DNA from: a virus
Strand: one strand, 5' to 3'
IMG/VR virus record: IMGVR_UViG_3300032331_003707
Coordinates: 1 to 64,000 of that record
DNA: 64,000 nt
Part shown: one piece after another, positions 33,969 to 55,307 of the stretch
Numbering within the stretch: position 1 is the stretch's first letter
Layout of the letters: each line of letters opens with the position of its first letter
Program-made: the position numbers and the translations under genes
The notes under the pieces: model-generated
The model's database searches: none
What the model saw: the letters and a program-made list of their open reading frames with translations, nothing else
What the model was told of the DNA's origin: nothing

Positions 33969-34008
33969 CCGAGATTCTGAAATTAGATTTTGTATCTTTA
34001 TAGTATAA
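33969..34008 (+). promoter_or_regulatory. CCGAG promoter copy 1
   Basis: CCGAG at 33969, 19 nt, TATCTTTATAG at 33993. First of 28 copies with identical spacing; preceded by CCCCAATTCTTTAT. Drives 34021. Confidence 0.7.
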
Positions 34009-34020
34009 GATTTAAAACAT

Positions 34021-34293
34021 ATGAAATACTCAAGAGAATTTAAAAATGCAGATGGTACTGCAAGTACTTGGTTCTATGACACAGAACGTTTCCCAAATGG
34101 TCCTTACCGTGTTGAAATCGGTTATGCAAAAGATACCGATTACGATAAGGTATTTGAAGAGGAATATGATGAAGATAAAGATACTTCAACTGATACCTCA
34201 GTACCAATTACAAAACGTAGATGGACCAACCCAGCAAATGGTAAGCTTGTAGGTTATACTAGAGCTAAAAACCTTGGATTAGTAAAAAGTTAA
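34021..34293 (+). CDS. Hypothetical protein
   Basis: 90 residues; acidic middle (EEEYDEDKDTSTDTS) and a C-terminal basic segment (KRRWTNPANGKLVGYTRAKNLGLVKS). Unrecognised; first gene of the CCGAG-promoter array. Confidence 0.6.
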   Translation: MKYSREFKNADGTASTWFYDTERFPNGPYRVEIGYAKDTDYDKVFEEEYDEDKDTSTDTSVPITKRRWTNPANGKLVGYTRAKNLGLVKS

Positions 34294-34302
34294 AATAAAA
34301 TT

Positions 34303-34563
34303 ATGTCTATATCACCAAGAGCAATTAGAAATAATATTACTATCAAATTTGATGGTAAAACAGTTGATAAAAAAACTGTGCTAGAAGCAAGTGAAGCATG
34401 GGAACCTAAACACGAATCATTATTCGTAAAACTATTAAAACAGGGTGGTAAATTTACTGCTAACGGAGTAGTAGTAGAAGTGTTTCCTGCAGATCAAATG
34501 TTAACTTCACGAGGTGAAAAAGATAGTGGTATCATCACTTCAGATCCTTTAGCACGATTTTAA
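34303..34563 (+). CDS. Hypothetical protein
   Basis: 86 residues, 9 bases after the preceding stop. Short strands and helices (ITIKFDGKTVDKKTVLEASEAW); unrecognised. Confidence 0.6.
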   Translation: MSISPRAIRNNITIKFDGKTVDKKTVLEASEAWEPKHESLFVKLLKQGGKFTANGVVVEVFPADQMLTSRGEKDSGIITSDPLARF

Positions 34564-34574
34564 ATTAAATAACT

Positions 34575-34703
34575 ATGAAAAAACTAATTAAAAGATTTCA
34601 CCAGGAAATGGAGGAAGCTTGTTATCCAATAGATCCATTCCCGGTTTATTTATTTATGGTAATAGCGTTATTATGTCCTGTTATAGTTAACTTATTAAAA
34701 TAA
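34575..34703 (+). CDS. 42-residue membrane peptide
   Basis: MKKLIKRFHQEMEEACYPID then a C-terminal TM helix (VYLFMVIALLCPVIVNLL). Tight spacing to both neighbours. Unrecognised. Confidence 0.55.
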   Translation: MKKLIKRFHQEMEEACYPIDPFPVYLFMVIALLCPVIVNLLK

Positions 34704-34705
34704 TT

Positions 34706-34960
34706 ATGGAAGCAAAAGAAAAAGCAGAACAGTTAGTAAACAAAATGTTTAATTGGATTCAAGGCGGAAGTGTAATAGAATATGAAACAGCTAAAGAATG
34801 TGCCTTGATAGCAGTAGATGAAATATTAAATACTTTGCCAATTTTGAGACCTGCGCAAGATGCTGTAAATTATTTAGAAAATTATTCTGCTATACAAACT
34901 CAATTAGATAATCTAAGTTATTATTGGCAAGATGTAAAAGGAGAAATAGAAAATCTTTAA
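34706..34960 (+). CDS. Helical hypothetical protein
   Basis: 84 residues, helical (KAEQLVNKMFNWIQGG, AKECALIAVDEILNTL). This phage-typical small helical layout is common (ECALIAVDEIL), but no function is known. Confidence 0.6.
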   Translation: MEAKEKAEQLVNKMFNWIQGGSVIEYETAKECALIAVDEILNTLPILRPAQDAVNYLENYSAIQTQLDNLSYYWQDVKGEIENL

Positions 34961-34963
34961 ATT

Positions 34964-35059
34964 ATGGAAAAATACGAAAAGAGTTTTTTATTAGGATTTT
35001 TTGTAGGTGGAATAATTGGTATAATAGTACTCGATCTAGTCCAAAGAGGAATAATTTAA
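34964..35059 (+). CDS. 31-residue membrane peptide
   Basis: MEKYEKSFLLGFFVGGIIGI..., one glycine-rich TM helix. Spaced 3 bases from the preceding stop. Unrecognised. Confidence 0.5.
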   Translation: MEKYEKSFLLGFFVGGIIGIIVLDLVQRGII

Positions 35060-35063
35060 AAAT

Positions 35064-35234
35064 ATGGAAGGTAAATACGTAATCATAGATCTTAGAACTA
35101 TGGATTTTATGAAGGATGAACATGGTATTATAAAGTACTATGACACCGAGGAAGAAGCAGGTCTTACCTGTGGTATACAAGAGCTTGAAAATGCTTGGGT
35201 AATGAAATTAGTGTTTAATCATATAGAAGAATGA
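35064..35234 (+). CDS. 56-residue hypothetical protein
   Basis: MEGKYVIIDLRTMDFMKDEHG..., a beta/alpha layout similar to other small phage 'YVVIDLxT' proteins. Stop overlaps the next start (ATGATGG). Confidence 0.6.
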   Translation: MEGKYVIIDLRTMDFMKDEHGIIKYYDTEEEAGLTCGIQELENAWVMKLVFNHIEE

Positions 35235-35494
35235 TGGATCAAATAGGTTATGTCTTATTATACACCATTAATGGATTAGCAATAGCGTTTGTAGTATATA
35301 TTGGGGTTTGGATGCCTAAAGAAAAAATGAAAGGCCACGCCGGTAGAGGTAAATGTAAATGTTGTAATGAGAAAGTAGTATATCATGAAGACGATAATGG
35401 GAATTGGTTCAAAACTACACGTGACAAAGATGGGAACCGAATCTACATGGAAAGTAATGATGGAGTAATTTTTGATAATAGAAAAAATAATTAG
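35231..35494 (+). CDS. TM protein with CxCC motif
   Basis: 87 residues: N-terminal TM helix (YVLLYTINGLAIAFVVYIGVW), then KCKCCNEKVVYHEDDNGNWF, a possible half zinc knuckle facing the cytoplasm. Its stop is inside the first helix of the following structured RNA. Confidence 0.55.
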   Translation: MMDQIGYVLLYTINGLAIAFVVYIGVWMPKEKMKGHAGRGKCKCCNEKVVYHEDDNGNWFKTTRDKDGNRIYMESNDGVIFDNRKNN

Positions 35495-35750
35495 CCCCGC
35501 TCGCGAGGGGATCGTAAAACACAGTAAGCCTCTGAGATCGTACCAGCTATACTATTATGGTATAGGCGAACCTCAAGTAACTGTTCTCATCGTATAGGAG
35601 ATAGGGTGTTAGTTAGCCTTTTCAAACACCCGACGTCGTATCCAGACTTTAAAAGGCAACTATTAGTGAACTTCGGTACCCATACCGCTGACGATGGGCT
35701 AAGTAAGATACAATTCCGTGCTGCGGGGAGTAGAATGCCGAAGAGCTAAT
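35490..35750 (+). ncRNA. Structured RNA of unknown class (about 260 nt)
   Basis: No ORF, and GC content well above its surroundings. Ends pair: ATTAG (35490-35494) with CTAAT (35746-35750), then CCCCGC (35495-35500) with GCGGGG (35723-35728). Inside: CTATAC/GTATAG hairpin (35547-35565), GGGTGTT (35604-35610) with AACACCC (35625-35631), and GCCTTTT (35616-35622) with AAAAGGC (35651-35657); the last two helices interleave, pointing to a pseudoknot or two alternative folds. TCGTA occurs four times. It lies just before two tRNA-like RNAs. Known large phage RNAs near tRNAs (GOLLD, ROOL) are a comparison, but it is shorter. Confidence 0.6.
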
Positions 35751-35758
35751 AGTAACAT

Positions 35759-35858
35759 AGTCAGGTGGTGTAATTGGGTAGCACAACGAAACGGGAGTAA
35801 CCGAAAGGCCAGTACCAATCTACTTGCGTTGATATAGGTTCGAATCCTGTCCTGACTA
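35759..35858 (+). ncRNA. tRNA-like RNA 1 with enlarged anticodon domain
   Basis: Acceptor stem AGTCAGG/CCTGACT (7 bp, 8 with the flanking T-A), D arm GTG...CAC with GGGTAG loop, and canonical T arm ATAGG-TTCGAAT-CCTGT. The anticodon position has a stem CAACG/CGTTG but closes a 38-nt loop instead of 7 nt, with an internal CC-GAAA-GG hairpin. No anticodon can be assigned. No CCA is encoded (ends A-CA). Not a group I intron by size. Confidence 0.65.
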
Positions 35859-35873
35859 CAAAATTAAATAGGA

Positions 35874-35978
35874 ATGACACAGGAGGAAATAAAACATTGG
35901 GTCGATAGGTGGTCGAAACTAAAGCCATCTCCTCAAAGAGATATGGTAATTAAGATTTGGTCTAGGTTATTGAAATAA
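35874..35978 (+). CDS. 34-residue ORF between the tRNA-like RNAs
   Basis: MTQEEIKHWVDRWSKLKPSP..., with AGGA before the ATG and a Trp-rich amphipathic helix. It fits exactly between the two tRNA-like RNAs. Small, so it may be chance, but codon use and Trp content look protein-like. Confidence 0.4.
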   Translation: MTQEEIKHWVDRWSKLKPSPQRDMVIKIWSRLLK

Positions 35979-35983
35979 AACAT

Positions 35984-36137
35984 AGTCAGGTGGTGGAATG
36001 GTAGACACATAATGACACGCACGGCAACCTTGAATAAGTGCACTTTGAAAAGGCAATGCGAATGATGAAGAACACTACCTCACAGTGCGTAGGTAAAATT
36101 CAAAGTGTTCATACAGGTTCGATTCCTGTCCTGACTA
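35984..36137 (+). ncRNA. tRNA-like RNA 2 with large insertion
   Basis: Same acceptor stem (AGTCAGG/CCTGACT), tRNA-Leu-like D arm (GTGGAATGGTAGACAC) and perfect T arm ACAGG-TTCGATT-CCTGT. Between D and T arms are about 105 nt instead of about 40. Pairing there includes ACGCAC/GTGCGT and CACTTTGAA/TTCAAAGTG, which may be alternatives. 17 bases at the 5' end (AACATAGTCAGGTGGTG) are identical to tRNA-like RNA 1. No clear anticodon. Confidence 0.65.
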
Positions 36138-36153
36138 CTAAAGAGGATAAAAC

Positions 36154-36193
36154 GCGTAGTAACCTCAGGGGTCTGCAGCCCCACTACGCTCCA
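36154..36193 (+). ncRNA. tRNA-like minihelix ending in CCA
   Basis: GCGTAGT pairs with ACTACGC (7 bp acceptor-like), enclosing AACCTCA and the hairpin GGGG-TCTGCAG-CCCC (T-arm-like, 7-nt loop), then T-CCA. This is the acceptor/T half of a tRNA with no D or anticodon arm. It ends 3 bases before tRNA-CAU. It may be a tRNA relic or a charged minihelix; also compatible with a simple processing hairpin. Confidence 0.45.
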
Positions 36194-36196
36194 TTA

Positions 36197-36270
36197 GCGC
36201 CCTTAGCTCATTAGGTTAGAGCAACTGACTCATAATCAGTAGGTACCTGGTTCGATCCCAGGAGGGCGCA
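36197..36270 (+). tRNA. tRNA with CAU anticodon (Met or Ile2)
   Basis: 74 nt with normal cloverleaf: acceptor GCGCCCT/AGGGCGC, D arm GCTC...GAGC, anticodon stem ACTGA/TCAGT with loop CTCATAA (anticodon CAT), T arm CCTGG-TTCGATC-CCAGG. CCA not encoded. CAU may read AUG or, if lysidine-modified, AUA; AUA is common in this AT-rich genome. Confidence 0.92.
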
Positions 36271-36289
36271 CAAAATTTTTTTAACTATA

Positions 36290-36331
36290 GGTTGGCTTTA
36301 CTACTATAGTTATTATATTTCGGATATAATT
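36290..36331 (+). promoter_or_regulatory. Probable promoter before the HTH gene
   Basis: TTGG at 36292, then TATATTTCGGATATAA at 36314. Weaker than the arrays; spacing two bases different. Lies between tRNA-CAU and the ATG at 36353. Confidence 0.4.
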
Positions 36332-36352
36332 AAAAACCAAATAAATAAAGTT

Positions 36353-36598
36353 ATGAACAAAATGTCAACAACCCCAAGTGCACGTTCTTACCGTCGCTTG
36401 AACCGTACTGCTAAATTAGCATTTTACAATGCTCGTCAACGTAAAGGTGACACTACCCGCTTAGCAGAAACTACTGGTTACTCAGCTAGCCATGTATCAA
36501 ATATTATTAATGGTCGCCGTTCGGTGAATCAGGATGTAGCAAACGCTATGTACAATATGTCTCGTCGTCGTATGAGAACAATCGAGCTAGTAGGTTAA
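36353..36598 (+). CDS. Helix-turn-helix DNA-binding protein
   Basis: 81 residues, strongly basic. DTTRLAETTGYSASHVSNIINGRRSVNQDVANAMYNM is a complete XRE/Cro-type HTH; flanked by Arg-rich ends (RSYRRLNRTAK, MSRRRMRTIE). Probably a transcription regulator of the neighbouring promoter array. A strong terminator follows at 36626. Confidence 0.75.
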   Translation: MNKMSTTPSARSYRRLNRTAKLAFYNARQRKGDTTRLAETTGYSASHVSNIINGRRSVNQDVANAMYNMSRRRMRTIELVG

Positions 36599-36625
36599 TT
36601 ACCTAAGCCATGTTGTGTGTTGGAG

Positions 36626-36657
36626 AGCATATCCTAAAGAGGATATGCTTTTCTTCT
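36626..36657 (+). terminator. Intrinsic terminator
   Basis: AGCATATCCT-aaag-AGGATATGCT, a perfect 10-bp stem, followed by TTTTCTTCT. Ends the HTH gene transcript. Confidence 0.85.
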
Positions 36658-36684
36658 CACTAAAGATATCCCCCAATTCTTTAT

Positions 36685-36722
36685 CCGAGATTATAAAATT
36701 ATCTTTACTATATTTACAGTAT
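36685..36722 (+). promoter_or_regulatory. CCGAG promoter copy 2, leaderless
   Basis: CCGAG at 36685, 19 nt, TATATTTACAG at 36709, ATG at 36723. Drives the operon from 36723 with essentially no leader. Confidence 0.7.
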
Positions 36723-37196
36723 ATGAATATTTTTTACGTACATAAAGACCCAATAGTTGCAGCACAAATGCTAGCAGATGATCACATTCGCAAAATGCAA
36801 ATTGAAAGCGCTCAGATGCTTTGTACAGCACATTGGGAAACAGGAGGTGAAGCACCTTATAAGCGAGCTCATAAAAATCACCCCTCAACTATTTGGGCTA
36901 GACAATCACTGCAACATTATAGATGGTTGCTGAAGCATGGTTTAGAAATTTGTTATGAGTTTGAGAAACGTTATGGTAAACGCCATGCAACACAAGCTGT
37001 ACTTGAATGGTGTGAATTGAATATACCCAATATACCAAATGTTGAGTTCGTTGAACCACCATTGTGTATGCCTGAGGAATTTAAGATTGATGATACTATT
37101 GGTTCGTATAGAAACTTTTACATCAATGATAAAGTAAAAATTAAAAAATTGGATTGGAAGAAAAATCCTGAAAGAAAACCGAATTGGATATTATGA
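36723..37196 (+). CDS. Conserved phage protein, MNIF-KMxxExAQML family
   Basis: 157 residues from ATG 36723. The start MNIFYVHKDPIVAAQMLADDHIRKMQ with IESAQML is a widespread phage family, often labelled pyrimidine-dimer DNA glycosylase-like by rough similarity; the real function is uncertain. His and Lys residues in the ADDHIRKM helix are conserved. Stop overlaps the next start (ATGA). Confidence 0.65.
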   Translation: MNIFYVHKDPIVAAQMLADDHIRKMQIESAQMLCTAHWETGGEAPYKRAHKNHPSTIWARQSLQHYRWLLKHGLEICYEFEKRYGKRHATQAVLEWCELNIPNIPNVEFVEPPLCMPEEFKIDDTIGSYRNFYINDKVKIKKLDWKKNPERKPNWIL

Positions 37197-38184: not shown

Positions 38185-38185
38185 T

Positions 38186-39328
38186 ATGGAAAATAATAAT
38201 TCAGTGTGCTACGTAGCACGCATAAACGAAATCAAAGAAATCCCAGGAGCAGATAATATCGAGCAAGGTGTTATCGGTGGATGGAATTGTATTATCAAGA
38301 AAGGAGAATACAAAGTAGATGACTTGGTTGTAGTGGCAACAACCGATGCAGTCATTCCTGTAGAGTTGTCAGATGCAATGAATGTAACCAATTACTTACG
38401 TAAAGGTCAACGTGTGCGTACTGTTAAGTTGAGGGGAGTATATTCTGAGTGTTTGATTATACCTTTAAGATATGCTCGTCAATCTGCTAAGTACACTAAA
38501 TTGGAGTGGGATGAAGGTAAGGATATAATGGAATTGTTGGGTGTCTACAAGTATGAACCACCAGTACGCCAAGTACAATTGGCTGGGGGTCGTAAAATTA
38601 AATATAAAGACAATCCTAACTTCACAGTATATCACAAGTTCCCTAACATTAAGAATGTAACTGGAATGTTTACTGAAGAAGATTATGTACAAATTACTCG
38701 TAAGATACATGGTACAAATGCTCGTTACGGTATTGTTAAGAAACATAAATTATCGTTTTGGGATAAAGTTAAAAAACTCTTTACTAACAATATATGGGCT
38801 GAATATGAGTTTATATATGGGTCCCATAACGTTGAGAAAGGTTCAGATACACAAGGTTTTTATGATACTGATGTTTGGAGGGAAGTAGCTGATAAATATG
38901 ATATCAAAAACAAGTTATGGGAGTTTGCTAAAAAAATCTCACCAGCTGTAATTGGGTCTGGGGTAGTAGTTTATGGTGAAGTATATGGTCCTGGTATCCA
39001 AAAGAACTATGATTATGGGTTAAAGGAGTTAGAGTTTGCTGGGTTTGATATTACAGTCAATGGTACATACCAAACCACATTCGCTACTAGACATATTATG
39101 GTTGGTGCATTCGAATTACCACACGTACCTGAATTATGTGAACATACATCTTGGTCACAAGAGATTCAAGACCAATTCACATTCAACAACTTCATTGAAG
39201 GAACTAAAGTACCACATGAAGGTATTGTAATCAAACATATAAGTGGACAAAGAGAAAAAATAGCCAAAGTAATCAACCCAGACTACCTCATCTATGGAGA
39301 GAAACACGATGTAGGAGATAGCCACTAA
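38186..39328 (+). CDS. RNA ligase, DraRnl (Rnl5)-like
   Basis: 380 residues. N-terminal OB-like domain (about 1-125), then the ligase core: motif I TRKIHGTNARYG (Lys that becomes adenylated), motif III/IIIa VVVYGEVYG, motif IV HEGIVIK and motif V AKVINPDYL. This order with an N-terminal OB fold matches DRB0094-type nick-sealing RNA ligases. With the kinase it would repair cleaved tRNA. Confidence 0.85.
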   Translation: MENNNSVCYVARINEIKEIPGADNIEQGVIGGWNCIIKKGEYKVDDLVVVATTDAVIPVELSDAMNVTNYLRKGQRVRTVKLRGVYSECLIIPLRYARQSAKYTKLEWDEGKDIMELLGVYKYEPPVRQVQLAGGRKIKYKDNPNFTVYHKFPNIKNVTGMFTEEDYVQITRKIHGTNARYGIVKKHKLSFWDKVKKLFTNNIWAEYEFIYGSHNVEKGSDTQGFYDTDVWREVADKYDIKNKLWEFAKKISPAVIGSGVVVYGEVYGPGIQKNYDYGLKELEFAGFDITVNGTYQTTFATRHIMVGAFELPHVPELCEHTSWSQEIQDQFTFNNFIEGTKVPHEGIVIKHISGQREKIAKVINPDYLIYGEKHDVGDSH

Positions 39329-39337
39329 ACTCTTTAT

Positions 39338-39373
39338 CCTAGGCTTTTAAATAAAATTTATTATCTTTATAGT
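39338..39373 (+). promoter_or_regulatory. CCGAG promoter copy 3 (CCTAG variant), leaderless
   Basis: CCTAG at 39338, 19 nt, TATCTTTATAG at 39362, running into the ATG at 39374. Confidence 0.65.
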
Positions 39374-40024
39374 ATGAAAATAGAGTTAAAACAACATCAA
39401 AGATTATGGTTTACGAGTGATACTCACTACAACCACTCCAATATTTGTAGAGCAACTACACGTTGGACTGATGCTGATAGTGTGACTCGTGATTTTGCTT
39501 CATTAGAGAAGATGAATGAGGAGTTAGTGTACTGGATAAATAGGAGAGTAGCGCAGGATGATATCTTGATTCACTTAGGTGATTGGTCGTTTGGTGGTTT
39601 TGAAAGTATCCAAACATTTAGAGATAGAATTGTATGTCAAAACATACATTTAGTGTTAGGCAATCACGACCACCACATTCAGAATAACAGAGATAACATC
39701 CAATCTATATTCAGCTCAGTAAACCAATACTTGGACTTAGGTGTTAGTTGGTGGATTGCTGGCAAGAAAAAGGAACACGCTCGTTTCATTTGTATGCACT
39801 ACCCAATCGCAAGTTGGAATGGGATGAATGATGGTGCAGTGCATTTACACGGACACGTTCACTTACCTAAACATTTAAGAATGGCAGCAGGTAAAGCAAT
39901 GGATGTAGGAGTTGATGGAAATGACTTGGAGCCAATTGAAATGGATGATATATTAATAAAGATGGTATCTAGGCCAATTGCTAAATTAGCATTACCAAAG
40001 GATCACCACGAAAAAAGATTATAA
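39374..40024 (+). CDS. Calcineurin-like metallophosphoesterase 1
   Basis: 216 residues with the five motifs: FTSDTHYNH (D-x-H), HLGDWSF (GD), VLGNHDHH (GNHD), CMHYP (H) and HLHGHVH (GH-x-H). Phage-type phosphoesterase. Gene order after kinase and ligase suggests processing of RNA 2',3'-phosphate ends, as the metallophosphoesterase module of bacterial Pnkp does; that is inference. Confidence 0.82.
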   Translation: MKIELKQHQRLWFTSDTHYNHSNICRATTRWTDADSVTRDFASLEKMNEELVYWINRRVAQDDILIHLGDWSFGGFESIQTFRDRIVCQNIHLVLGNHDHHIQNNRDNIQSIFSSVNQYLDLGVSWWIAGKKKEHARFICMHYPIASWNGMNDGAVHLHGHVHLPKHLRMAAGKAMDVGVDGNDLEPIEMDDILIKMVSRPIAKLALPKDHHEKRL

Positions 40025-42222: not shown

Positions 42223-42244
42223 ATTATTATCCCTAATTCCTTAT

Positions 42245-42284
42245 CCGAGGCTCTTTAATTATCTTTATTATCTTTATAGTATAA
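42245..42284 (+). promoter_or_regulatory. CCGAG promoter copy 4
   Basis: CCGAG at 42245, 19 nt, TATCTTTATAGTATAA at 42269. Drives the small-gene operon from 42295. Confidence 0.75.
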
Positions 42285-44909: not shown

Positions 44910-44931
44910 TTTTCACTCCCTAACTCTTTAT

Positions 44932-44971
44932 CCGGGGCTCTTAAACATTCTATATTATCTTTAGAGTATAA
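44932..44971 (+). promoter_or_regulatory. CCGAG promoter copy 5 (CCGGG variant)
   Basis: CCGGG at 44932, 19 nt, TATCTTTAGAGTATAA at 44956. Drives the DUF932 gene. Confidence 0.75.
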
Positions 44972-44989: not shown

Positions 44990-45796
44990 ATGTTAGAAAT
45001 CAAAAACACATCATTTCTCGACAAAGTTGAGATTAAAAAACGCGCCGCGTCAGTATTCACATCTGTAAAAGGCGAAGCAACAAGTGAAAAATACACTCAT
45101 ATTCCAACAGACCGTGTTATTGAAGACATGGAAAAGTTAGGATGGGGTGTAGTAGATGCTAAAGAAGTACGTGCTCGTAAAGGAGTAGGGTTTCAAAAGC
45201 ATTTGGTAGTATTTCGAAACCCAAGCATTGCCATTACAGGTGATGATGGTGATGATGTATTTCCACAAATTCTATTAACAAATAGTCATGATGGTAAAAA
45301 TGCATTTACATTTACGGCTGGTTTGTTTAGATTGGTTTGTGAGAATGGTTTAGTTATTTCAACTCAAGAGTTTGAAAACCTAAAGATTCGTCACATGGGT
45401 TATAACTTTGAAGAGCTACAAACAACAATCACAGCGTTAGTAGAAAAACTACCACTGACAGTTGATAGCATGAACAAGTTGAAAGCAACCAAACTGAATC
45501 AGAAACAGAAAGAAGACTTTGCTAAGCGTGCCCTAGAAACACGATTTGGTAAGGAAGATGTTCAAAACATTACTATTGATGTTAAGTCACTATTAGAACC
45601 AACTCGTAAGGAAGACAGTGGTGATGACATTTGGAGTGTGTTTAACGTGATTCAAGAGAAATTGATTCACGGTATGTTCGAGTATAAATTTGGTACTAAG
45701 GTACGTAAAGCTCGTAAAATCAAGAATTTCAAACAAGACATAAAGGTAAATGAAGATTTGTTTGAATTAGCACTTGATTATGTAACAGCGGCGTAA
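44990..45796 (+). CDS. DUF932-family protein
   Basis: 268 residues. FPQILLTNSHDGKNAFTFTAGLFRLVCENGLVIS split across about 85-118 is the hallmark of DUF932 (phage/plasmid LGT-type protein). The C-terminal part is helical and basic (KVRKARKIKNFKQD). Function unknown; common in plasmids and phages. Downstream hairpins at 45817-45895 end the transcript. Confidence 0.82.
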   Translation: MLEIKNTSFLDKVEIKKRAASVFTSVKGEATSEKYTHIPTDRVIEDMEKLGWGVVDAKEVRARKGVGFQKHLVVFRNPSIAITGDDGDDVFPQILLTNSHDGKNAFTFTAGLFRLVCENGLVISTQEFENLKIRHMGYNFEELQTTITALVEKLPLTVDSMNKLKATKLNQKQKEDFAKRALETRFGKEDVQNITIDVKSLLEPTRKEDSGDDIWSVFNVIQEKLIHGMFEYKFGTKVRKARKIKNFKQDIKVNEDLFELALDYVTAA

Positions 45797-45900: not shown

Positions 45901-45916
45901 GATCCAAATTTTTTAT

Positions 45917-45956
45917 CCGAGATTATAGATTATTTGTTTGTATCTTTATATTAAAT
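45917..45956 (+). promoter_or_regulatory. CCGAG promoter copy 6
   Basis: CCGAG at 45917, 19 nt, TATCTTTATATTAAAT at 45941. Drives 45967. Confidence 0.7.
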
Positions 45957-45966: not shown

Positions 45967-46101
45967 ATGACTAATAAAGAGCTAGCAAAACAGATCCAAG
46001 ACCTAAATGCGTATTTGGATAAAAATCCATGGGATGTTCAGCAACGTCAATTGCGTTACGATCTTGTTGACCAATTGTGTAATAAGATCCTTAATCCTTA
46101 A
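45967..46101 (+). CDS. 44-residue helical peptide
   Basis: MTNKELAKQIQDLNAYLDKN..., helical; its stop overlaps the CCGAG region of promoter copy 7. Unrecognised. Confidence 0.55.
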   Translation: MTNKELAKQIQDLNAYLDKNPWDVQQRQLRYDLVDQLCNKILNP

Positions 46102-46102
46102 T

Positions 46103-46143
46103 CCGAGATCATCAATTAACTTATATTATCTTTATACTATAAA
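46103..46143 (+). promoter_or_regulatory. CCGAG promoter copy 7
   Basis: CCGAG at 46103 one base after a stop codon, 19 nt, TATCTTTATACTATAA at 46127. Confidence 0.7.
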
Positions 46144-46152: not shown

Positions 46153-46614
46153 ATGATTAAATTTACAGAAACAGATTCAGGGCGTGTCAGAGCCGGATTC
46201 ACAGATGAAAACAATGACTGCGCAGTTAGAGCATTAGCTGAAGTAACTGGAACAAGTTATTCAAATGCACACATGTTTTGGGGGCAGTTAGGTCGAAAAA
46301 GAGGTGGTGGTTCGTTTATGGTGTGGTTAGATAAGTATTTGTTTAATAATGACGACAAAGTATTTGGTATGAAAGTAAAGCGACACAAAATGCCATATCA
46401 CGATCATGAACGTCAACCCGACCCTGTTACTCGTAAACCAACATTGAAGCGATTAAATGTTAAAACGTTTATACAACAAAACCCAACAGGTAGGTTCATG
46501 ATTATTACTTGTAATCATGCTAAGGCCATTGTTGATAGTGAGATACGTGATTTTGAACAAGGTGTTTACAGTGAGGTAGCATTAGTATATGAATTTATAT
46601 CCCCAACTTCTTAG
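46153..46614 (+). CDS. C39/papain-like cysteine protease (phage type)
   Basis: 153 residues. NDCAVRALAEVTG with the nucleophile Cys (near residue 23), then near the end GRFMIITCNHAKAIVDSEIRDF with His and Asp, the catalytic order of C39-like phage papain-fold proteins. May cleave a host or phage protein; the target is unknown. Confidence 0.65.
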   Translation: MIKFTETDSGRVRAGFTDENNDCAVRALAEVTGTSYSNAHMFWGQLGRKRGGGSFMVWLDKYLFNNDDKVFGMKVKRHKMPYHDHERQPDPVTRKPTLKRLNVKTFIQQNPTGRFMIITCNHAKAIVDSEIRDFEQGVYSEVALVYEFISPTS

Positions 46615-46654
46615 CCGAGATTTTAGAACAAATGATATTATCTTTATAGTATAA
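46615..46654 (+). promoter_or_regulatory. CCGAG promoter copy 8
   Basis: CCGAG starts on the base after the TAG stop of the protease; 19 nt; TATCTTTATAGTATAA at 46639. Confidence 0.75.
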
Positions 46655-47394: not shown

Positions 47395-47464
47395 TGTGTG
47401 TGTGTTTTAACATAGGTATGAATTAGGGTGAAGAGTAAAAAAAGCAGTAGCCCTAATTTCTTAC

Positions 47465-47504
47465 CCTTGGTTTTAAAAGTATTTTTATTATCTTTATAGT
47501 ATAA
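47465..47504 (+). promoter_or_regulatory. CCGAG promoter copy 9 (CCTTG variant), for tRNA-Leu
   Basis: CCTTG at 47465, 19 nt, TATCTTTATAGTATAA at 47489, 12 bases before tRNA-Leu. Confidence 0.65.
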
Positions 47505-47515: not shown

Positions 47516-47601
47516 GGCCGGATGGTGAAACAGGTAGACACGCAGGACTTAAAATCCTGTTGCCCGAAACGGCAGTGTGGGTTCGATTCCCACTCCGGCT
47601 A
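47516..47601 (+). tRNA. tRNA-Leu (UAA)
   Basis: 86 nt class II tRNA. Acceptor GGCCGGA/TCCGGCT (G1-U72 wobble), D arm TGGTGAAACAGGTAGACAC, anticodon stem CAGGA/TCCTG with loop CTTAAAA (anticodon TAA), long variable arm TGCCCGAAACGGCA, T arm GTGGG-TTCGATT-CCCAC. CCA not encoded. TTA is the main Leu codon here, so it likely boosts phage translation. Confidence 0.93.
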
Positions 47602-47616
47602 CTAAAAAGGATTGTT

Positions 47617-47826: not shown

Positions 47827-47847
47827 AAAATTACCATAATTTTTTAT

Positions 47848-47887
47848 CCGAGGTTCTGAAATTGAATTTTATATCTTTATAGTATAA
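47848..47887 (+). promoter_or_regulatory. CCGAG promoter copy 10
   Basis: CCGAG at 47848, 19 nt, TATCTTTATAGTATAA at 47872. Drives 47897-48736. Confidence 0.75.
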
Positions 47888-48250: not shown

Positions 48251-48736
48251 ATGAACGTAGCAGAAATTAAACACAAAGTAGCAGAGCTAATGCTCGAATC
48301 AAAGACAAAATGGGAAAAAACATTTAATGGTATTGAACCCGCTACAAAAGAAGAACGAGATGCTTATGAACAGCATTTGAAGCTCACCAACAGCAAAATC
48401 AAACAAATCGTTCCACGAGAACTACAACTATGCATAGGCTTAACTGGATGTGCTAAGACAGTATGGAATGGTGATGTTGATAGAGAGATTGAAGCAGAGT
48501 TTGGTAAGGGTAATGGTGTGTATTGTGATAGTGAGTCAGGTATGTTTTATGCTAAGGCATCACCTAGGATGGTTCATAAGTTGATTCGATTCATTGATTA
48601 TAAGTTTCCAAACGAACTTGAACTAAGCATATCACCAACAGGCGATTGGGATGATAATGGTAATCCATGGTTTTACAACTGGAATGGTATTGAACGTTAT
48701 TTTAAGGAGTTAGAACAAGATGCCGAAAACTCTTGA
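48251..48736 (+). CDS. Hypothetical protein
   Basis: 161 residues; helical N-terminus (MNVAEIKHKVAELMLESK), then a mixed domain with CIGLTGCAK and ELSISPTGDWDDNGNPWFYNW broken by turns. Unrecognised. Stop overlaps the CCGAG of the next promoter region. Confidence 0.6.
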   Translation: MNVAEIKHKVAELMLESKTKWEKTFNGIEPATKEERDAYEQHLKLTNSKIKQIVPRELQLCIGLTGCAKTVWNGDVDREIEAEFGKGNGVYCDSESGMFYAKASPRMVHKLIRFIDYKFPNELELSISPTGDWDDNGNPWFYNWNGIERYFKELEQDAENS

Positions 48737-48737
48737 G

Positions 48738-48777
48738 CCGAGGTTATTAAATGAACATTATTATCTTTATAGTATAA
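48738..48777 (+). promoter_or_regulatory. CCGAG promoter copy 11
   Basis: CCGAG at 48738, one base after a stop codon, 19 nt, TATCTTTATAGTATAA at 48762. Confidence 0.75.
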
Positions 48778-49128: not shown

Positions 49129-49148
49129 TAAATTCCCTAACTTCTTAG

Positions 49149-49188
49149 CCGAGATTTTCAAGTATTATATATTATCTTTATAGTATAA
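49149..49188 (+). promoter_or_regulatory. CCGAG promoter copy 12
   Basis: CCGAG at 49149, 19 nt, TATCTTTATAGTATAA at 49173. Confidence 0.75.
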
Positions 49189-50019: not shown

Positions 50020-50045
50020 GTGGGGACTTAGGTCCCCACTCTTGT
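50020..50045 (+). terminator. Intrinsic terminator
   Basis: GTGGGGAC-ttag-GTCCCCAC, perfect 8-bp stem, then TCTTGTT; it abuts the next CCGAG element. Confidence 0.8.
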
Positions 50046-50046
50046 T

Positions 50047-50086
50047 CCGAGGTAAAAAAACATTCGATATTATCTTTATAGTATAA
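50047..50086 (+). promoter_or_regulatory. CCGAG promoter copy 13
   Basis: CCGAG at 50047 directly after the terminator T run, 19 nt, TATCTTTATAGTATAA at 50071. Confidence 0.75.
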
Positions 50087-50280: not shown

Positions 50281-50302
50281 TATTGTTGCCTTAACTCCTT
50301 AT

Positions 50303-50342
50303 CCGAGGTTATTAAGCAGATTATATTAAATTTATAGAAATA
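50303..50342 (+). promoter_or_regulatory. CCGAG promoter copy 14
   Basis: CCGAG at 50303, 19 nt, TAAATTTATAG at 50327. Confidence 0.7.
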
Positions 50343-50358: not shown

Positions 50359-50601
50359 ATGACAGTAAAAGAATTAAGAGAAGTATTAGCAGATTTCGAC
50401 GCAGACATGGAAGTACGATTCGCATACAACTATGGCGATTATTGGAATAGCGAAGTAGCAGCAGACATAACTGATGCAGAAATAGGTCAAGTTCAATACT
50501 CAGCATATCATAGATCAGACAAGGTTGTTGATCCTGACAGAGATAATGATGACGATAGCATAAATGCCTTAACCGCTCCACACGTAGTGATTTTAAGATA
50601 A
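50359..50601 (+). CDS. TVKELxExL-family small protein
   Basis: 80 residues: MTVKELREVLADFDADMEVRF, acidic loop, HVVILR end. Same layout as the protein at 55059 (MTISEMIEQL...DIEVVL). Common small phage family of unknown function. Confidence 0.65.
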   Translation: MTVKELREVLADFDADMEVRFAYNYGDYWNSEVAADITDAEIGQVQYSAYHRSDKVVDPDRDNDDDSINALTAPHVVILR

Positions 50602-50614
50602 TACAACTCCTTAG

Positions 50615-50654
50615 CCGAGATTCTAAAATGAACGATATTATCTTTAGAGTATAA
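50615..50654 (+). promoter_or_regulatory. CCGAG promoter copy 15
   Basis: CCGAG at 50615, 19 nt, TATCTTTAGAGTATAA at 50639. Confidence 0.75.
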
Positions 50655-50671: not shown

Positions 50672-51049
50672 ATGAAAATCTTATTAACACAAATCGAATC
50701 AGAAGATTATTTCTTGAATGCATTATGTAATGGCCTACATGAATTAGGTAATTACGGAGTTGAACTCGATTACAACGAGGATGAATATAAATTATCACGA
50801 GCATCATTAGGACCAAATGCACCGTGTTTTGAAGATGTATTGATGCAAATGTTACGTGATGGTTACAAATTAGATTTTACTGATACTGAAGCAGAAGAAA
50901 CCACATCTATTACAATGCATGACGTTTACGCTAAGGTACAGGAAACAGATATACGTCATTTATTAGATATGATAAATGAACGAGACGATGCTATAACAGC
51001 AGATGCTATATTACAAACAGTTATATATGGTGAGGTTATCTTCGGATAA
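50672..51049 (+). CDS. Hypothetical protein
   Basis: 125 residues, mixed alpha/beta, acidic (LDYNEDEYKLSRASLG). Unrecognised; single gene with own promoter. Confidence 0.6.
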   Translation: MKILLTQIESEDYFLNALCNGLHELGNYGVELDYNEDEYKLSRASLGPNAPCFEDVLMQMLRDGYKLDFTDTEAEETTSITMHDVYAKVQETDIRHLLDMINERDDAITADAILQTVIYGEVIFG

Positions 51050-51062
51050 CCTTACCTTTTAG

Positions 51063-51102
51063 CCGAGGTTATTCAACATTTGTTATTACTTTTATAGTAT
51101 AA
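51063..51102 (+). promoter_or_regulatory. CCGAG promoter copy 16
   Basis: CCGAG at 51063, 19 nt, TACTTTTATAGTATAA at 51087. Confidence 0.7.
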
Positions 51103-51389: not shown

Positions 51390-51403
51390 CCCTAATTCCT
51401 TAC

Positions 51404-51443
51404 CCGAGATAAGGGAATAAATGATATTATCTTTAGAGTATAA
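51404..51443 (+). promoter_or_regulatory. CCGAG promoter copy 17
   Basis: CCGAG at 51404, 19 nt, TATCTTTAGAGTATAA at 51428. Confidence 0.75.
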
Positions 51444-51460: not shown

Positions 51461-51718
51461 ATGAGTAAAAAAACAATCAAAATTAACCTAAACGCAAACA
51501 CAGAAAAAGAATTGTTGTATAGACATTCATACGATTTAGGAACACTAATCGGAACAATGAGTGGTATATTAAAATACACAGATACTACTGACGAAGTGAA
51601 ACGTTTAATACTTAGATCACTACGTGAAATTGAACACGGTGATTCAGAATATAGTAAAAGTAAGATTAAACAGTTAGAAGCATTGGCGGATAGTTTTGGA
51701 TTCGAATTCGAATCCTAA
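51461..51718 (+). CDS. Hypothetical protein
   Basis: 85 residues; MSKKTIKINLNANTEKELLYR start, then helices (GTMSGILKYTDTTDEVKRLILRSL broken by a turn). Unrecognised. Confidence 0.6.
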   Translation: MSKKTIKINLNANTEKELLYRHSYDLGTLIGTMSGILKYTDTTDEVKRLILRSLREIEHGDSEYSKSKIKQLEALADSFGFEFES

Positions 51719-51727
51719 ACTCTTTAT

Positions 51728-51767
51728 CCGAGGTTTTAAGATAGATATTCATATTTTTATAGTATAA
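51728..51767 (+). promoter_or_regulatory. CCGAG promoter copy 18
   Basis: CCGAG at 51728, 19 nt, TATTTTTATAGTATAA at 51752. Confidence 0.7.
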
Positions 51768-51794
51768 GAAAAAATAATAAACACATAAAAGCAT

Positions 51795-51995: not shown

Positions 51996-52011
51996 TACCC
52001 TAACTGTTTAG

Positions 52012-52051
52012 CCGAGATTATTGAGTAAAATATATTATCTTTATATCATAA
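52012..52051 (+). promoter_or_regulatory. CCGAG promoter copy 19
   Basis: CCGAG at 52012, 19 nt, TATCTTTATATCATAA at 52036. Confidence 0.7.
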
Positions 52052-52083
52052 GAAAAAATAATAATCAAATAAAACACACAATT

Positions 52084-52260: not shown

Positions 52261-52279
52261 TAATTAAAAATAAAAAATT

Positions 52280-52435
52280 ATGTATAGTTTAGATTGTTCC
52301 TACTACACAAAATCATTTACAACATTAAATGAGTTAATAGATGATGTGACAATATCAGGCATGGACCCAAATTATGAGATAACACGTGACGGAAAAGGAA
52401 TAGGGGAAAATGCAATTGATTACCTAGTATTTTAA
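52280..52435 (+). CDS. 51-residue protein, MYSLxC family copy A
   Basis: MYSLDCSYYTKSFTTLNELI then a TISGMDPNYEIT segment; about 70 per cent identical by eye to the protein at 54147-54302. Duplicate small genes, function unknown. Confidence 0.65.
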   Translation: MYSLDCSYYTKSFTTLNELIDDVTISGMDPNYEITRDGKGIGENAIDYLVF

Positions 52436-52436
52436 T

Positions 52437-52476
52437 CCGAGATAAGAAAGCAGATTATATTAAATTTATAGTATAA
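52437..52476 (+). promoter_or_regulatory. CCGAG promoter copy 20
   Basis: CCGAG at 52437, one base after a stop codon, 19 nt, TAAATTTATAGTATAA at 52461. Confidence 0.7.
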
Positions 52477-52505
52477 GAAAAAATAAAATATAATACCAGA
52501 AAAAC

Positions 52506-52805
52506 ATGAAGACACAGAACGAATTATTCAAAACATTCCTAAACGAGAATATCAATGAATTGAAAGATGTATTGGTGGATACGTTTGAATTAGATGAGGA
52601 TAATGTGAATGATATTGTTGGGTTTGACGGAAACAATTATGATGGGTATTATGGAGTAGATAAAGAAGGAGAATGTGTAACGTTTGGATGTGATATATTT
52701 GAATCATTAGATGATGATTTTGAAGAAGATAATGGTGATGATGTATCGATTGGAACAGATGTGATTGGTGGGAAAGAAATATATTTTGTATGTTACGATT
52801 TCTAA
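52506..52805 (+). CDS. Acidic hypothetical protein
   Basis: 99 residues, over 30 per cent Asp/Glu, few basic residues (LVDTFELDEDNVNDIVGFD; DDDFEEDNGDDVSIG). Possible DNA mimic; unrecognised. Confidence 0.6.
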   Translation: MKTQNELFKTFLNENINELKDVLVDTFELDEDNVNDIVGFDGNNYDGYYGVDKEGECVTFGCDIFESLDDDFEEDNGDDVSIGTDVIGGKEIYFVCYDF

Positions 52806-52821
52806 AATCCTAACTCATTGT

Positions 52822-52857
52822 CCGTGATAAAGAAAGAAAATATATTATCTTTATAGT
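52822..52857 (+). promoter_or_regulatory. CCGAG promoter copy 21 (CCGTG variant), leaderless
   Basis: CCGTG at 52822, 19 nt, TATCTTTATAG at 52846 running into ATG 52858. Confidence 0.7.
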
Positions 52858-53028
52858 ATGAAAGGAAAAATAACAGAAATGATAGTATCAATCATCACAA
52901 TGTATTTGATTGGTAGTTGTATGTTTTTATCGTTTAATCCATATGAATGGAGTATAACGGGAATAATCATATTAACATTAGTATTAGGAAAAGTATTAGG
53001 AGATTTGTATTATGGGACAAAAGAATAA
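52858..53028 (+). CDS. 56-residue two-TM protein
   Basis: MKGKITEMIVSIITMYLIG... with two TM helices. Leaderless start; its end overlaps the next gene by 17 bases. Unrecognised. Confidence 0.55.
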   Translation: MKGKITEMIVSIITMYLIGSCMFLSFNPYEWSITGIIILTLVLGKVLGDLYYGTKE

Positions 53029-53263
53029 ATTTAGTTCGTATAAACATTATCTAACATATCTAACTAATCATGGAGATGTGGAGAGTGATATGATAGAGAA
53101 ATTCATTGAAACGGGATTGTTGATAAAAGAGAAACAAGTGACGGTGGATGGGTATGAAGCGATTGGGTTTCGTGTGATGACGGAACGTGAATTTAACGGA
53201 TCTAAGATGAAGAGAAATGATATTTTTAGTCGTGTTGAGAGATGGTTAATTGGTGACAAATAA
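53012..53263 (+). CDS. Small winged-helix-like hypothetical protein
   Basis: 83 residues: helices then a beta hairpin (KEKQVTVDGYEAIGFRVMT) and a basic helix (KMKRNDIFSRVERWL). Possible DNA-binding wing; unrecognised. Confidence 0.5.
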   Translation: MGQKNKFSSYKHYLTYLTNHGDVESDMIEKFIETGLLIKEKQVTVDGYEAIGFRVMTEREFNGSKMKRNDIFSRVERWLIGDK

Positions 53264-53426
53264 AGATAGTGTGTGTTGTTTTAGGAATGGGAATTGGTGG
53301 TATGTGACATACGTATATATCAATGATATTACGGAATTATGAACACATGCTACCTTCCCCCCATCGCCTTCCAAATTTAGATAAGTAAAAAGAGGATATT
53401 TGTATATATTTTCCCTAACTCCTTAT

Positions 53427-53466
53427 CCGAGGTTCCAAAAAGAAGGAATATATCTTTAGAGTATAA
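53427..53466 (+). promoter_or_regulatory. CCGAG promoter copy 22
   Basis: CCGAG at 53427, 19 nt, TATCTTTAGAGTATAA at 53451. The 163 bases before it (53264-53426) hold no gene. Confidence 0.75.
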
Positions 53467-53496
53467 GTAAAAAGATATAAATTAAAAACAACAACT

Positions 53497-53697
53497 ATGT
53501 TAAGATGGATGTGGGATATGTATGGTATGTTTTCTTTAATGAAACTACTAATGTGGGACCTACCATTTATGTCCCTGAAGTTTACATATTACATGTTTAA
53601 GTACACTATCATAACGATGTATTATGTTATGAAGGGTTGTTTTGAAATGTTTAAGCTTTTTTATGTATTCATAAAGTTTTTAACAGGTATTTTTTAA
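53497..53697 (+). CDS. Hydrophobic Met/Trp/Phe-rich membrane protein
   Basis: 66 residues, extremely hydrophobic, 10 Met and many aromatics (MLRWMWDMYGMFSLMKLLMW). Likely inserts in the membrane; possible toxic or membrane-active early protein. Terminator follows. Confidence 0.55.
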   Translation: MLRWMWDMYGMFSLMKLLMWDLPFMSLKFTYYMFKYTIITMYYVMKGCFEMFKLFYVFIKFLTGIF

Positions 53698-53705
53698 GAG
53701 ATAAA

Positions 53706-53737
53706 AAGGGAACTTGAATAAGATTCCCTTCTCTTTA
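53706..53737 (+). terminator. Intrinsic terminator
   Basis: AAGGGAA-loop-TTCCCTT followed by CTCTTT; overlaps the next promoter's upstream part. Confidence 0.7.
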
Positions 53738-53738
53738 T

Positions 53739-53775
53739 TCGAGATAAGAAGAAAAATGAACGTATTTTTACAGAA
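53739..53775 (+). promoter_or_regulatory. CCGAG promoter copy 23 (TCGAG variant)
   Basis: TCGAG at 53739, 19 nt, TATTTTTACAG at 53763. Weaker -7. Confidence 0.6.
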
Positions 53776-53787
53776 AAAAGAAAACAA

Positions 53788-54099
53788 ATGATTAAGATAA
53801 ATAAACACCCAGAATCAATCGACAACATGAGTAACCTAATAGAATCAGGGTTCACCATGAAATTCGAGAACGGAAATACTATCAGTGTTCAGTTCGGTGA
53901 TTTTAATTACAGTAGTAATAAAGATAAAGGAACAAAGAACACTGCAACATCAGCAGAAGTAGCAATATGGAACAGTGATGGGACGTGGTACGATTTTGGT
54001 GATGAGTTATATATTAAGGGATGGTGTGGTGTTGATGAGGTAGCGAAGTGGGTTTCATTTGCTGCTACCAATGTTTTTAGCCAAGGCTCTGAAGCATGA
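53788..54099 (+). CDS. Hypothetical protein
   Basis: 103 residues, Ser/Asn rich beta layout (NTISVQFGDFNYSSNKD), with DELYIKGWCGVDEVAKWVSF at the end. Unrecognised. Confidence 0.6.
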   Translation: MIKINKHPESIDNMSNLIESGFTMKFENGNTISVQFGDFNYSSNKDKGTKNTATSAEVAIWNSDGTWYDFGDELYIKGWCGVDEVAKWVSFAATNVFSQGSEA

Positions 54100-54120
54100 T
54101 ATCGTACATTTATAGTATAA
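54081..54120 (+). promoter_or_regulatory. CCGAG promoter copy 24 (CCAAG variant)
   Basis: CCAAG at 54081 inside the preceding gene's end, 19 nt, TACATTTATAGTATAA at 54105. Confidence 0.6.
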
Positions 54121-54146
54121 GAAAAAATAATTAAACACACACAATT

Positions 54147-54302
54147 ATGTATAGCTTAAACTGCCATTACTACACAAAGCAATTCCCAGCATTAAACGAA
54201 TTGATAGAGGATATAACTATATCAGGTATGGATCCAAATTATGAGATAACACTTGATGGAGAAGGAACAGGAGAAGAAGCAATTGATTTCATTACTTTCT
54301 AG
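54147..54302 (+). CDS. 51-residue protein, MYSLxC family copy B
   Basis: MYSLNCHYYTKQFPALNELI with TISGMDPNYEIT; paralogue of 52280-52435, each behind its own CCGAG promoter. Function unknown. Confidence 0.65.
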   Translation: MYSLNCHYYTKQFPALNELIEDITISGMDPNYEITLDGEGTGEEAIDFITF

Positions 54303-54341
54303 CCGAGACTCTAGAACATGATATATTATATTTACATAAAA
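54303..54341 (+). promoter_or_regulatory. CCGAG promoter copy 25
   Basis: CCGAG begins on the base after the TAG stop, 19 nt, TATATTTACAT at 54327. Confidence 0.65.
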
Positions 54342-54351
54342 AATAAAGGTT

Positions 54352-54456
54352 ATGAAAAACAACAACACAGCACATTTGGGTAAGTATGTAGTGGTGAACA
54401 ATGTCCCACACAAGTTCGTAAACGGAAAATTAATAGCGCTAACCAAGAAGGGTTAA
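54352..54456 (+). CDS. 34-residue basic peptide
   Basis: MKNNNTAHLGKYVVVNNVPH...KKG; stop inside a terminator stem. Similar to other short phage 'YVVVNNxPH' peptides; unrecognised. Confidence 0.5.
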   Translation: MKNNNTAHLGKYVVVNNVPHKFVNGKLIALTKKG

Positions 54457-54468
54457 GCGCTATTTTTT
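54435..54468 (+). terminator. Intrinsic terminator
   Basis: AGCGCTAACC pairs with GGTTAAGCGCT (one bulge), then ATTTTTT. Abuts promoter copy 26. Confidence 0.8.
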
Positions 54469-54470
54469 AT

Positions 54471-54510
54471 CCGAGACAACACATTGTTTAGTCGTATATT
54501 TAGCTTGTAA
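54471..54510 (+). promoter_or_regulatory. CCGAG promoter copy 26
   Basis: CCGAG at 54471, 19 nt, TATATTTAGCTTGTAA at 54495. Confidence 0.65.
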
Positions 54511-54525
54511 TAAAAAAACACACAC

Positions 54526-54984
54526 ATGAAAATTACAGCATCAACCCCAATCACATCGCTCACCAGCAAAGAATTAACAACGGTAGTGATAAACACAGTA
54601 CAGTGGTGTTTCGATAATTTGAAACAACCACGTCGTCACAGAGTGTTCAACGGTATAAAATTAACCATGCCTGAGATGCATGTGTTCATTTCACGTAAAC
54701 GTGGTTATGATTTGAATCCGAAAAACAATTGTCGTGGTGAATACAATCCATTCATCAACCAAATCATCATTGTTAAAAACAACATTGATAGTTTCGAGGA
54801 TTTGGTCGACACAATCATTCATGAGTATACTCACTCAACACAAACATTAGGTAGCTATGCTAAGAAGAGCCTAAAATATGGTTATTATGATAACCCGTTT
54901 GAGGTTGAGGCACGTACTGTTGCTGCCATTCATACTGATGATTGTGTGTTTGATGTTTGTAAATTGTTAAATCCTAACTATTGA
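54526..54984 (+). CDS. SprT-like zinc metalloprotease
   Basis: 152 residues. Zincin motif IIHEYTHSTQ (about residue 105) with a downstream Glu-containing NPFEVEARTVAA. Similar to small SprT/ImmA-type peptidases. Could cleave a host DNA-bound protein; target unknown. Confidence 0.65.
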   Translation: MKITASTPITSLTSKELTTVVINTVQWCFDNLKQPRRHRVFNGIKLTMPEMHVFISRKRGYDLNPKNNCRGEYNPFINQIIIVKNNIDSFEDLVDTIIHEYTHSTQTLGSYAKKSLKYGYYDNPFEVEARTVAAIHTDDCVFDVCKLLNPNY

Positions 54985-54985
54985 T

Positions 54986-55025
54986 CCGAGATTACAAAGC
55001 GTATTGTCGTATTTTTATAGTATAA
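54986..55025 (+). promoter_or_regulatory. CCGAG promoter copy 27
   Basis: CCGAG at 54986, one base after the stop, 19 nt, TATTTTTATAGTATAA at 55010. Confidence 0.7.
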
Positions 55026-55058
55026 GAAAAAATAATAACAACACATAAACACACGATT

Positions 55059-55253
55059 ATGACAATTTCAGAAATGATTGAACAATTGACCGAGTTAAAA
55101 GCACAACACGGTGACATCGAAGTAGTATTGAACGTTACTGATCACACTGATTGGGATTACAATTTTGAACACCCCGGTTTTGATGTTGGTGAGGTGTATG
55201 AAGAGGGGTTTGATGAAGATACTAACTATTGTATCTGTAGTATACAAATATAG
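55059..55253 (+). CDS. TISEMIEQL-family small protein
   Basis: 64 residues: MTISEMIEQLTELKAQHGDI then EVVLNVTDHTDWDYNF; same layout as 50359-50601. Small phage family, function unknown. Confidence 0.65.
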   Translation: MTISEMIEQLTELKAQHGDIEVVLNVTDHTDWDYNFEHPGFDVGEVYEEGFDEDTNYCICSIQI

Positions 55254-55267
55254 TCGTAGTTACCTAT

Positions 55268-55307
55268 CCGAGATTAGAAGACAAATGTTCGTATTTTTAT
55301 AGTATAA
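55268..55307 (+). promoter_or_regulatory. CCGAG promoter copy 28
   Basis: CCGAG at 55268, 19 nt, TATTTTTATAGTATAA at 55292. Last copy of the array; drives the AT-hook gene. Confidence 0.7.

Follow-up and report, generated by a model that had tools for sequence, protein, structure and literature searches.

The first 64 kb (64,000 nucleotides, nt) of the 100,345-bp IMG/VR virus record IMGVR_UViG_3300032331_003707, referred to here as the window, contain an early gene module in which a bipartite element recurs, a CCGAG-type box standing 19 nt ahead of a TATCTTTATAG-type box, with CCGAG in the place that a Bacteroidota promoter gives to TTTG. The sites, here named X promoters to distinguish them from host-type TTTGG-N19 promoters (H-class), are almost certainly promoters, to judge from their sequence and position. 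It is on balance probable that they are promoters of an early module at which host sigma-A would act at -7, while an activator would substitute for the contact at -33 in a MotA-like manner. In a small clade of T4-like phages, about 30 promoters of early genes appear to have been altered together, from TTTG to CCGAG or CCTAG at the same position. The phage of the window (G000) can be placed among the T4-like myoviruses, tailed phages that use the host polymerase, by its early gene content and its large terminase of the T4 type, which has 59% identity to that of Flavobacterium phage immuto_2-6A (immuto), a cultured relative that infects Flavobacterium, and which next resembles thousands of T4-like records.

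A weight matrix built from 27 seed sites was applied with a cut-off score of >20 to the whole 100-kb contig. It returned 29 plus-strand sites scoring 22.8-76.6, of which 28 lie in 33969-55307, the number given for this region by the original prediction, and one, a weak one, lies at 26562. The minus strand of the contig yielded no site above the cut-off (best matrix score 6.6), and the best score in 20 simulated genomes was 0.5. The non-varying 19-nt spacer, which had also been claimed, was borne out when the two boxes were scored separately, the distance being exactly 19 nt in 29/29 pairs. An exact search for CCGAG-N17..21-TATCTTTATAG gave seven matches, every one with a 19-nt spacer, against 0 in 100 shuffles, and loose regular expressions found 17 pairs at 19 nt and 0-1 at each other distance from 5 to 44. 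The element CCYTAACTCYTTAT that had been seen in front of the box is likewise real, with C at -13 in 27/29 sites, AA at -10/-9, and T at -7 and -4 in 27/29. Most X sites lie 2-45 nt upstream of the start of an open reading frame (ORF), and one precedes tRNA-Leu. The suggestion that many begin 1-3 bases from a stop codon was correct for a minority, about 6/29 lying 1-2 nt past a stop, while most are within about 25 nt of one.

The consensus of the X sites is CC-N3-AAYTYTT-N4-CCKAGRTT, in which CCKAG sits where TTTG normally stands. The -7 box of flavobacterial sigma-A promoters, TAnnTTTG, was mapped to positions -12 to -5 in Flavobacterium psychrophilum (PMC9723704); in this frame CCGAG occupies about -36 to -32, with the upstream element at about -50 to -37. 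The -7 box of the X sites, TATCTTTA, fits TAnnTTTG except at the last position, as does that of the ordinary promoters of this phage family, and at nearly all X sites CCKAG is found instead of the TTTG/TTG -33 box of Bacteroidota sigma-A promoters. The upstream element carries 20-24 bits of information and the -7 region 18-22, compared with 5-8 for the spacer. Over about -50 to -23 the sequence forms a direct repeat of about 14 bp (CC.tAAcTTTTtAt / CCtAGATT.TaAAA, period 14; p=0.0005 pooled, and 0 of 2000 in G004), as would be expected for two tandem protein contacts. A palindromic operator was also considered and rejected, its possible centres being weak and inconsistent; the direct repeat fits better. 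When the region was scanned for enterobacterial sigma-70 promoters, it gave fewer matches than shuffled sequence.

Related phages have at the same genes TTTGG- or GTTGC-N19-TATNTTTA promoters, which by their sequence would be ordinary Bacteroidota sigma-A promoters. In the corresponding module of immuto (MW353175), promoters of the type GTTGC-N19-TATATTTAGGTATCAATAATTAAAAC number about 20, and other family members have 10-17 TTTGG-N19 promoters in the module. Where an X-promoted gene has orthologues in phages outside the clade, xTTGx-N19 is found there in 11/13 cases for G000, 14/17 for G004 and 7/9 for G001. With the DUF932 protein as scan query, which gave 80 loci, TTTGG or CTTGG was found 19 nt before TATATTTA upstream of this gene in about 70 relatives (most of the readable ones), and CCTAG (CCKAG), CCGGG or CTGGG in the window's clade only. 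A phage box has taken the place of the host -33 element, with the host -7 element retained, and across the regulon the -33 position would have been rewired while genes, -7 box and spacing were kept. The original interpretation of Bacteroidota promoter geometry with CCGAG in the place of TTTG is upheld by these orthologous TTTGG- and GTTGC-N19 sites, and by a few TTTGG promoters that persist beside the new class. The constant spacer does not mark the X class and is no evidence of an altered polymerase, since it is common to the sigma-A promoters of the family: 19 nt separates 25/31 pairs in G013, 22/27 in G017 and 29/33 GTTGN pairs in immuto. At early promoters of other relatives the -33 variants CGTGC and TTAGG were seen (L089:9934, 15955; L160:1264, 1909, 4519, 5888), so that drift of the -33 box may have happened more than once.

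The clade was sampled as six metagenomic contigs representing about three lineages (G000, G001, G002, G004, G005 and G007, of which G000, G001 and G007 are incomplete), and CCKAG-type sites occur in all six. The five genomes that cover the module have 17-30 forward matches and 0 reverse, while G007, which covers the module edge only, has 3. No CCKAG-type sites above chance were found in immuto, G013, G014, G015, G017 or G018, and in a DUF932 tree the rows with X sites form one group (support 80/99). Beyond the X set, TTTGG-N19-TATCTTTATAG sites are present in G004 (9323, 17187, 18078 and 84546), in G007, and in G000 (29158 and 94407), and such sites are matched at orthologous genes. That at 29158-29192 on the plus strand of the window, TTTGG-N19-TATCTTTAGAG, stands before ORF 29215 and has an orthologous TTTGG site in G002, G004 and G007.

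Within the clade the box itself differs by lineage. Of the G000 sites 25/29 have G at box position 2, where every site of G004 and G005 (30/30) has T and G001 is mixed, and positions -3 to -1 are likewise lineage-dependent. In 12 orthologous pairs of G000 and G004 promoters, 11/12 differ at box position 2, while the -7 elements are 91% identical. A change of one box base throughout a lineage implies a trans-acting reader, and the joint replacement of TTTG suggests that a protein reads the new box, CCGAG or CCTAG, in this clade. An activator or altered recognition had been proposed originally, and the former seems the best interpretation, favoured as it is by this lineage-wide change, although the part concerning the protein stays inferred. 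Host RNA polymerase with its primary sigma-A would read TATCTTTA, the -7 box, at about -12 to -5; the tandem site CC-N3-AAYTYTT-N4-CCKAGRTT, at about -50 to -23, would bind an activator either encoded or brought by the phage; and the bound activator would recruit polymerase, replacing the contact of sigma region 4 at -33, presumably by touching region 4 or the polymerase, with transcription starting at the X sites. It is possible, and is put forward tentatively, that an early regulon of about 30 promoters moved in concert from the sigma-A -33 contact to a phage-specific recogniser unrelated to MotA/AsiA, whose base preference later shifted (CCGAG versus CCTAG) with nearly all promoters following suit.

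An unlikely alternative is that the X promoters are immediate-early and need no phage factor, the phage having adapted to a host in which sigma-A region 4, an alternative sigma or an activator recognises CCKAG. Elsewhere the counterpart of the X module, a dense early module, has plain sigma-A promoters, so the X-promoted genes may be needed at once, and the lineage-specific base change could follow differences between hosts. A host with such altered recognition is, however, hard to reconcile with the persistence of TTTGG promoters in the same genomes, and an upstream element of 20-24 bits exceeds the need of a -33 hexamer. Moreover, the X element gave 10 hits in 396 Bacteroidota genomes, below the approximately 22 of a reversed control and with no enrichment, and only nine scattered single hits in a scan of GTDB genomes; on these two scans a host regulon is not supported and was rejected.

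As readers of the new box, the three candidates named in the original prediction are not supported. The supposed helix-turn-helix (HTH) protein at 24936 resembles HNH endonuclease families rather than a classical regulator. Homologues of this protein, and of the DksA-like one at 24569, are present in immuto, whose promoters are of the GTTGC type, while the AT-hook-like protein at 55345 has relatives in phages with TTTG promoters (TTTGG). The sole clear DNA-binding candidate, and the leading though equivocal one, is an 81-residue HTH_3 (Cro/CI-type) protein encoded at 36353-36598 on the plus strand, with a Pfam match at E=2.8e-5, above the curated cut-off. Homologues occur family-wide, and the gene is placed close to where the X module begins, downstream of an H-class (TTG) promoter (36290-36324, plus strand), whose orthologue at G004:18078 has a clear TTTGG-N19. 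The X-clade proteins (window 36353-36598; L173:8001-8234; L165:4614-4817) have 12-13 residues more than ten homologues from outside the clade. The N-terminal MNKMSTTPSARSY extension, a stretch MNKMSTT..R.Y after the start codon, is shared by both X lineages in which the protein was found and is absent from those ten. N-terminal arms of lambda-repressor-type proteins contact DNA, and this extension could alter specificity; if the HTH_3 protein is the reader, then its function would have been gained through an arm added in the X clade. A structural model matched Aca/SinR/P22 c2-type HTH folds at low significance. None of the 18 proteins confined to the X clade was recognisably DNA-binding in the scans made. 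In sister phages (L165-L172) the stretch from the tRNA genes to the HTH gene contains repeated GTTGATTATGAGAC-like segments, and PAS-domain proteins are encoded by the start of the X module (G004 13072-17179; window 32070-33176), together in G004 with a response-regulator-like receiver protein.

It is quite improbable that a phage sigma factor, or an AsiA-like protein that remodels sigma, alters -33 recognition directly with no separate activator. The replaced box is exactly at the DNA contact of sigma region 4, and the family does encode a sigma-factor-like protein, in the window at 62716-63477 (plus strand), for which the matches to sigma factors, including those of a structural model, are weak but consistent. 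Yet this protein does not track the X class, similar proteins being present in many phages with TTTG promoters, and it was rejected as the X reader; nor was an AsiA-like protein recognised, though small unknown proteins abound. A likelier target for the sigma-like protein is the motif TATTTATA (ATATTTATAA), which is strongly enriched before structural genes (9/32 in G000, where 0.4 was expected, 19/52 in G004 and 14/36 in immuto). The motif was located in the window at 1-26000 and 56000-64000 and in L008 and L009, and also in G001, G004, G013 and immuto. It is the reverse complement of T4 TATAAATA, which is not the motif enriched in coding orientation. TATTTATA is a probable late promoter of the sigma-like protein, which would itself be a family-wide, gp55-like late sigma. 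In G004 and G005 (L072:12440-13400; L068:2082-3100) the latter has about 55 residues inserted immediately ahead of its KAYSYFGTIAKRYLI stretch, which is region 2-like; the other family members aligned lack this insertion.

Several observations weigh against an activator-dependent class of promoters as set out above. The core of the HTH_3 protein is 90-96% identical in TTTGG-using sister phages that lack X sites, which weakens this protein as the sole explanation. In G000, loose TTG-N19 matches are near background (5 versus 3.4), so that the coexistence of two promoter classes depends on a few strong sites together with G002, G004 and G007. Analysed singly, G000 and G001 give only a marginal direct repeat (p about 0.03-0.05, with 13 as the best period). 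Finally, GC-rich hairpins directly abut 17-27% of X sites (17% in G001), compared with 3-4% of control windows, so that the upstream element, which is rich in C and T, may in part serve termination of the preceding gene. Taken to its limit, the last point would make the upstream half mainly a terminator tail and the true promoter a -7-only (extended -7) one in which no -33 box is needed. The long, conserved -7 region (18-22 bits) and the sites that read GGGGG...CCCCCACTTTTTAT ahead of the box would suit this proposal, which is nevertheless very improbable: most sites are stemless, hairpins being present at about a quarter, yet CC at -14/-13 and CCKAGRTT are fixed in register, and the box follows any T-tract and shows coordinated changes between lineages. 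That the sites are instead a repeated structural element, such as a recombination, replication or packaging signal, is scarcely credible in spite of the many near-identical copies in one region, as all are on the coding strand and nearly all closely precede an ORF start or tRNA; they also have the -7 geometry of sigma-A, and relatives carry TTTG promoters at these positions.

In the window all the X promoters are on the plus strand. The first (33955-34005) comprises the upstream repeat, CCGAG, 19 nt and TATCTTTATAG and would drive ORF 34021, and that at 36671-36721 (CCGAG with TATATTTACAG) would drive the pyrimidine-dimer glycosylase-like ORF 36723-37196. The phosphoesterase ORF 39374 follows a CCTAG site with TATCTTTATAG (39324-39374), for which the orthologues in seven relatives have TTTGG/CTTGG, and ORF 52858 follows a CCGTG site (52808-52858); these two promoters (39338-39374 and 52822-52858) are so near the start codon ATG that their mRNAs would have no leader or almost none. 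A CCGGG site (44918-44968) precedes the DUF932-like ORF 44990-45796, orthologues of which have TTTGG, CTTGG or GTTGC elsewhere, and a CCTTG site (47451-47501) is immediately 5' of tRNA-Leu (47516-47602). Other variant boxes are TCGAG at 53725-53775 (ORF 53788) and CCAAG at 54067-54117 (ORF 54147; TTTGG/CTTGG at orthologues elsewhere). The remaining sites have CCGAG. They include those at 46601-46651, before the KaiC/RecA-like ATPase ORF 46672; at 54972-55022, before ORF 55059, with TTTGG/CTTGG in 11/11 orthologues elsewhere; at 55254-55304, before the AT-hook-like ORF 55345; at 50033-50083, adjoining a terminator-like hairpin (50020-50039); and at 54457-54507, before ORF 54526, where the -7 box is weak (TATATTTAGCT) and which is the 28th site in the predicted range. 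Further CCGAG sites precede ORFs 46153 (46089-46139), 48793 (48724-48774), 49206 (49135-49185), 50359 (50289-50339), 50672 (50601-50651), 51120 (51049-51099), 51461 (51390-51440), 51795 (51714-51764), 52084 (51998-52048) and 52506 (52423-52473), and others are at 42231-42281, 45903-45953, 47834-47884, 53413-53463 and 54289-54339. The weak outlying X-like site (26548-26598, plus strand) reads TTAGG with CCCCCCAATTCTTTTG in front. Directly after the X module, 56116-60840 is occupied by minus-strand genes in a block where the GC skew is reversed, and some 20 kb at 2654-23614 is given over to glycosyltransferase, nucleotide-sugar and epimerase-like genes. Two tRNAs were the only RNA families found with Rfam.

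The X promoters resemble the sigma-A promoters of flavobacteria and other Bacteroidota (TTTG at -33, TAnnTTTG at -7; PMC9723704) in their -7 element, geometry and A-rich leader, and differ from them in having CCKAG and an upstream half-site in place of TTTG, and A rather than G as the last base of the -7 box. The early module of immuto_2-6A (MW353175) has homologous genes and about 20 N19 promoters in the corresponding region, but retains TTG at -33, with no upstream direct repeat seen. The early promoters of T4 are strong promoters of the sigma-70 type in which additional sequence is conserved (PMC2988021); in both systems each small early gene has one strong promoter and conservation extends beyond that of a host promoter, but T4 keeps an excellent -35, whereas the X promoters are without TTTG.

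The middle promoters of T4 combine a MotA box with the host -10 element and require AsiA, an arrangement known as sigma appropriation (PMC2988021). As in the X promoters, the host -35/-33 gives way to a box specific to the phage, the host -10/-7 element stays, and many copies are found in the prereplicative region of a T4-like phage that still uses host polymerase. The X box is longer, however (a direct repeat of about 14 bp, at about -50 to -23), has another sequence and a fixed 19-nt distance, and is paired with a Bacteroidota sigma-A -7 element rather than TATAAT. Because there is no MotA box (TGCTT) 12+-1 bp from a -10 element, the X box being CCKAG/CC..AAYTYTT 19 nt from -7, and because Pfam and/or PHROGs scans of about 35 window proteins, from an incomplete contig, turned up no recognisable homologue of MotA or AsiA, the X class is not assigned to the T4 middle promoters. 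The comparison would give annotation rules for three promoter classes (TTTGG, CCKAG and TATTTATA) in a large, mostly uncultured phage family. It would also open to direct test how a whole regulon is rewired and how a recogniser evolves together with about 30 sites. Most of what is known of sigma appropriation, and of promoter takeovers like it, comes from T4 in enteric bacteria; the present replacement would be a comparable case from a second bacterial phylum, whose promoter grammar differs, and the states before and after the change are both visible at the same genes in relatives.

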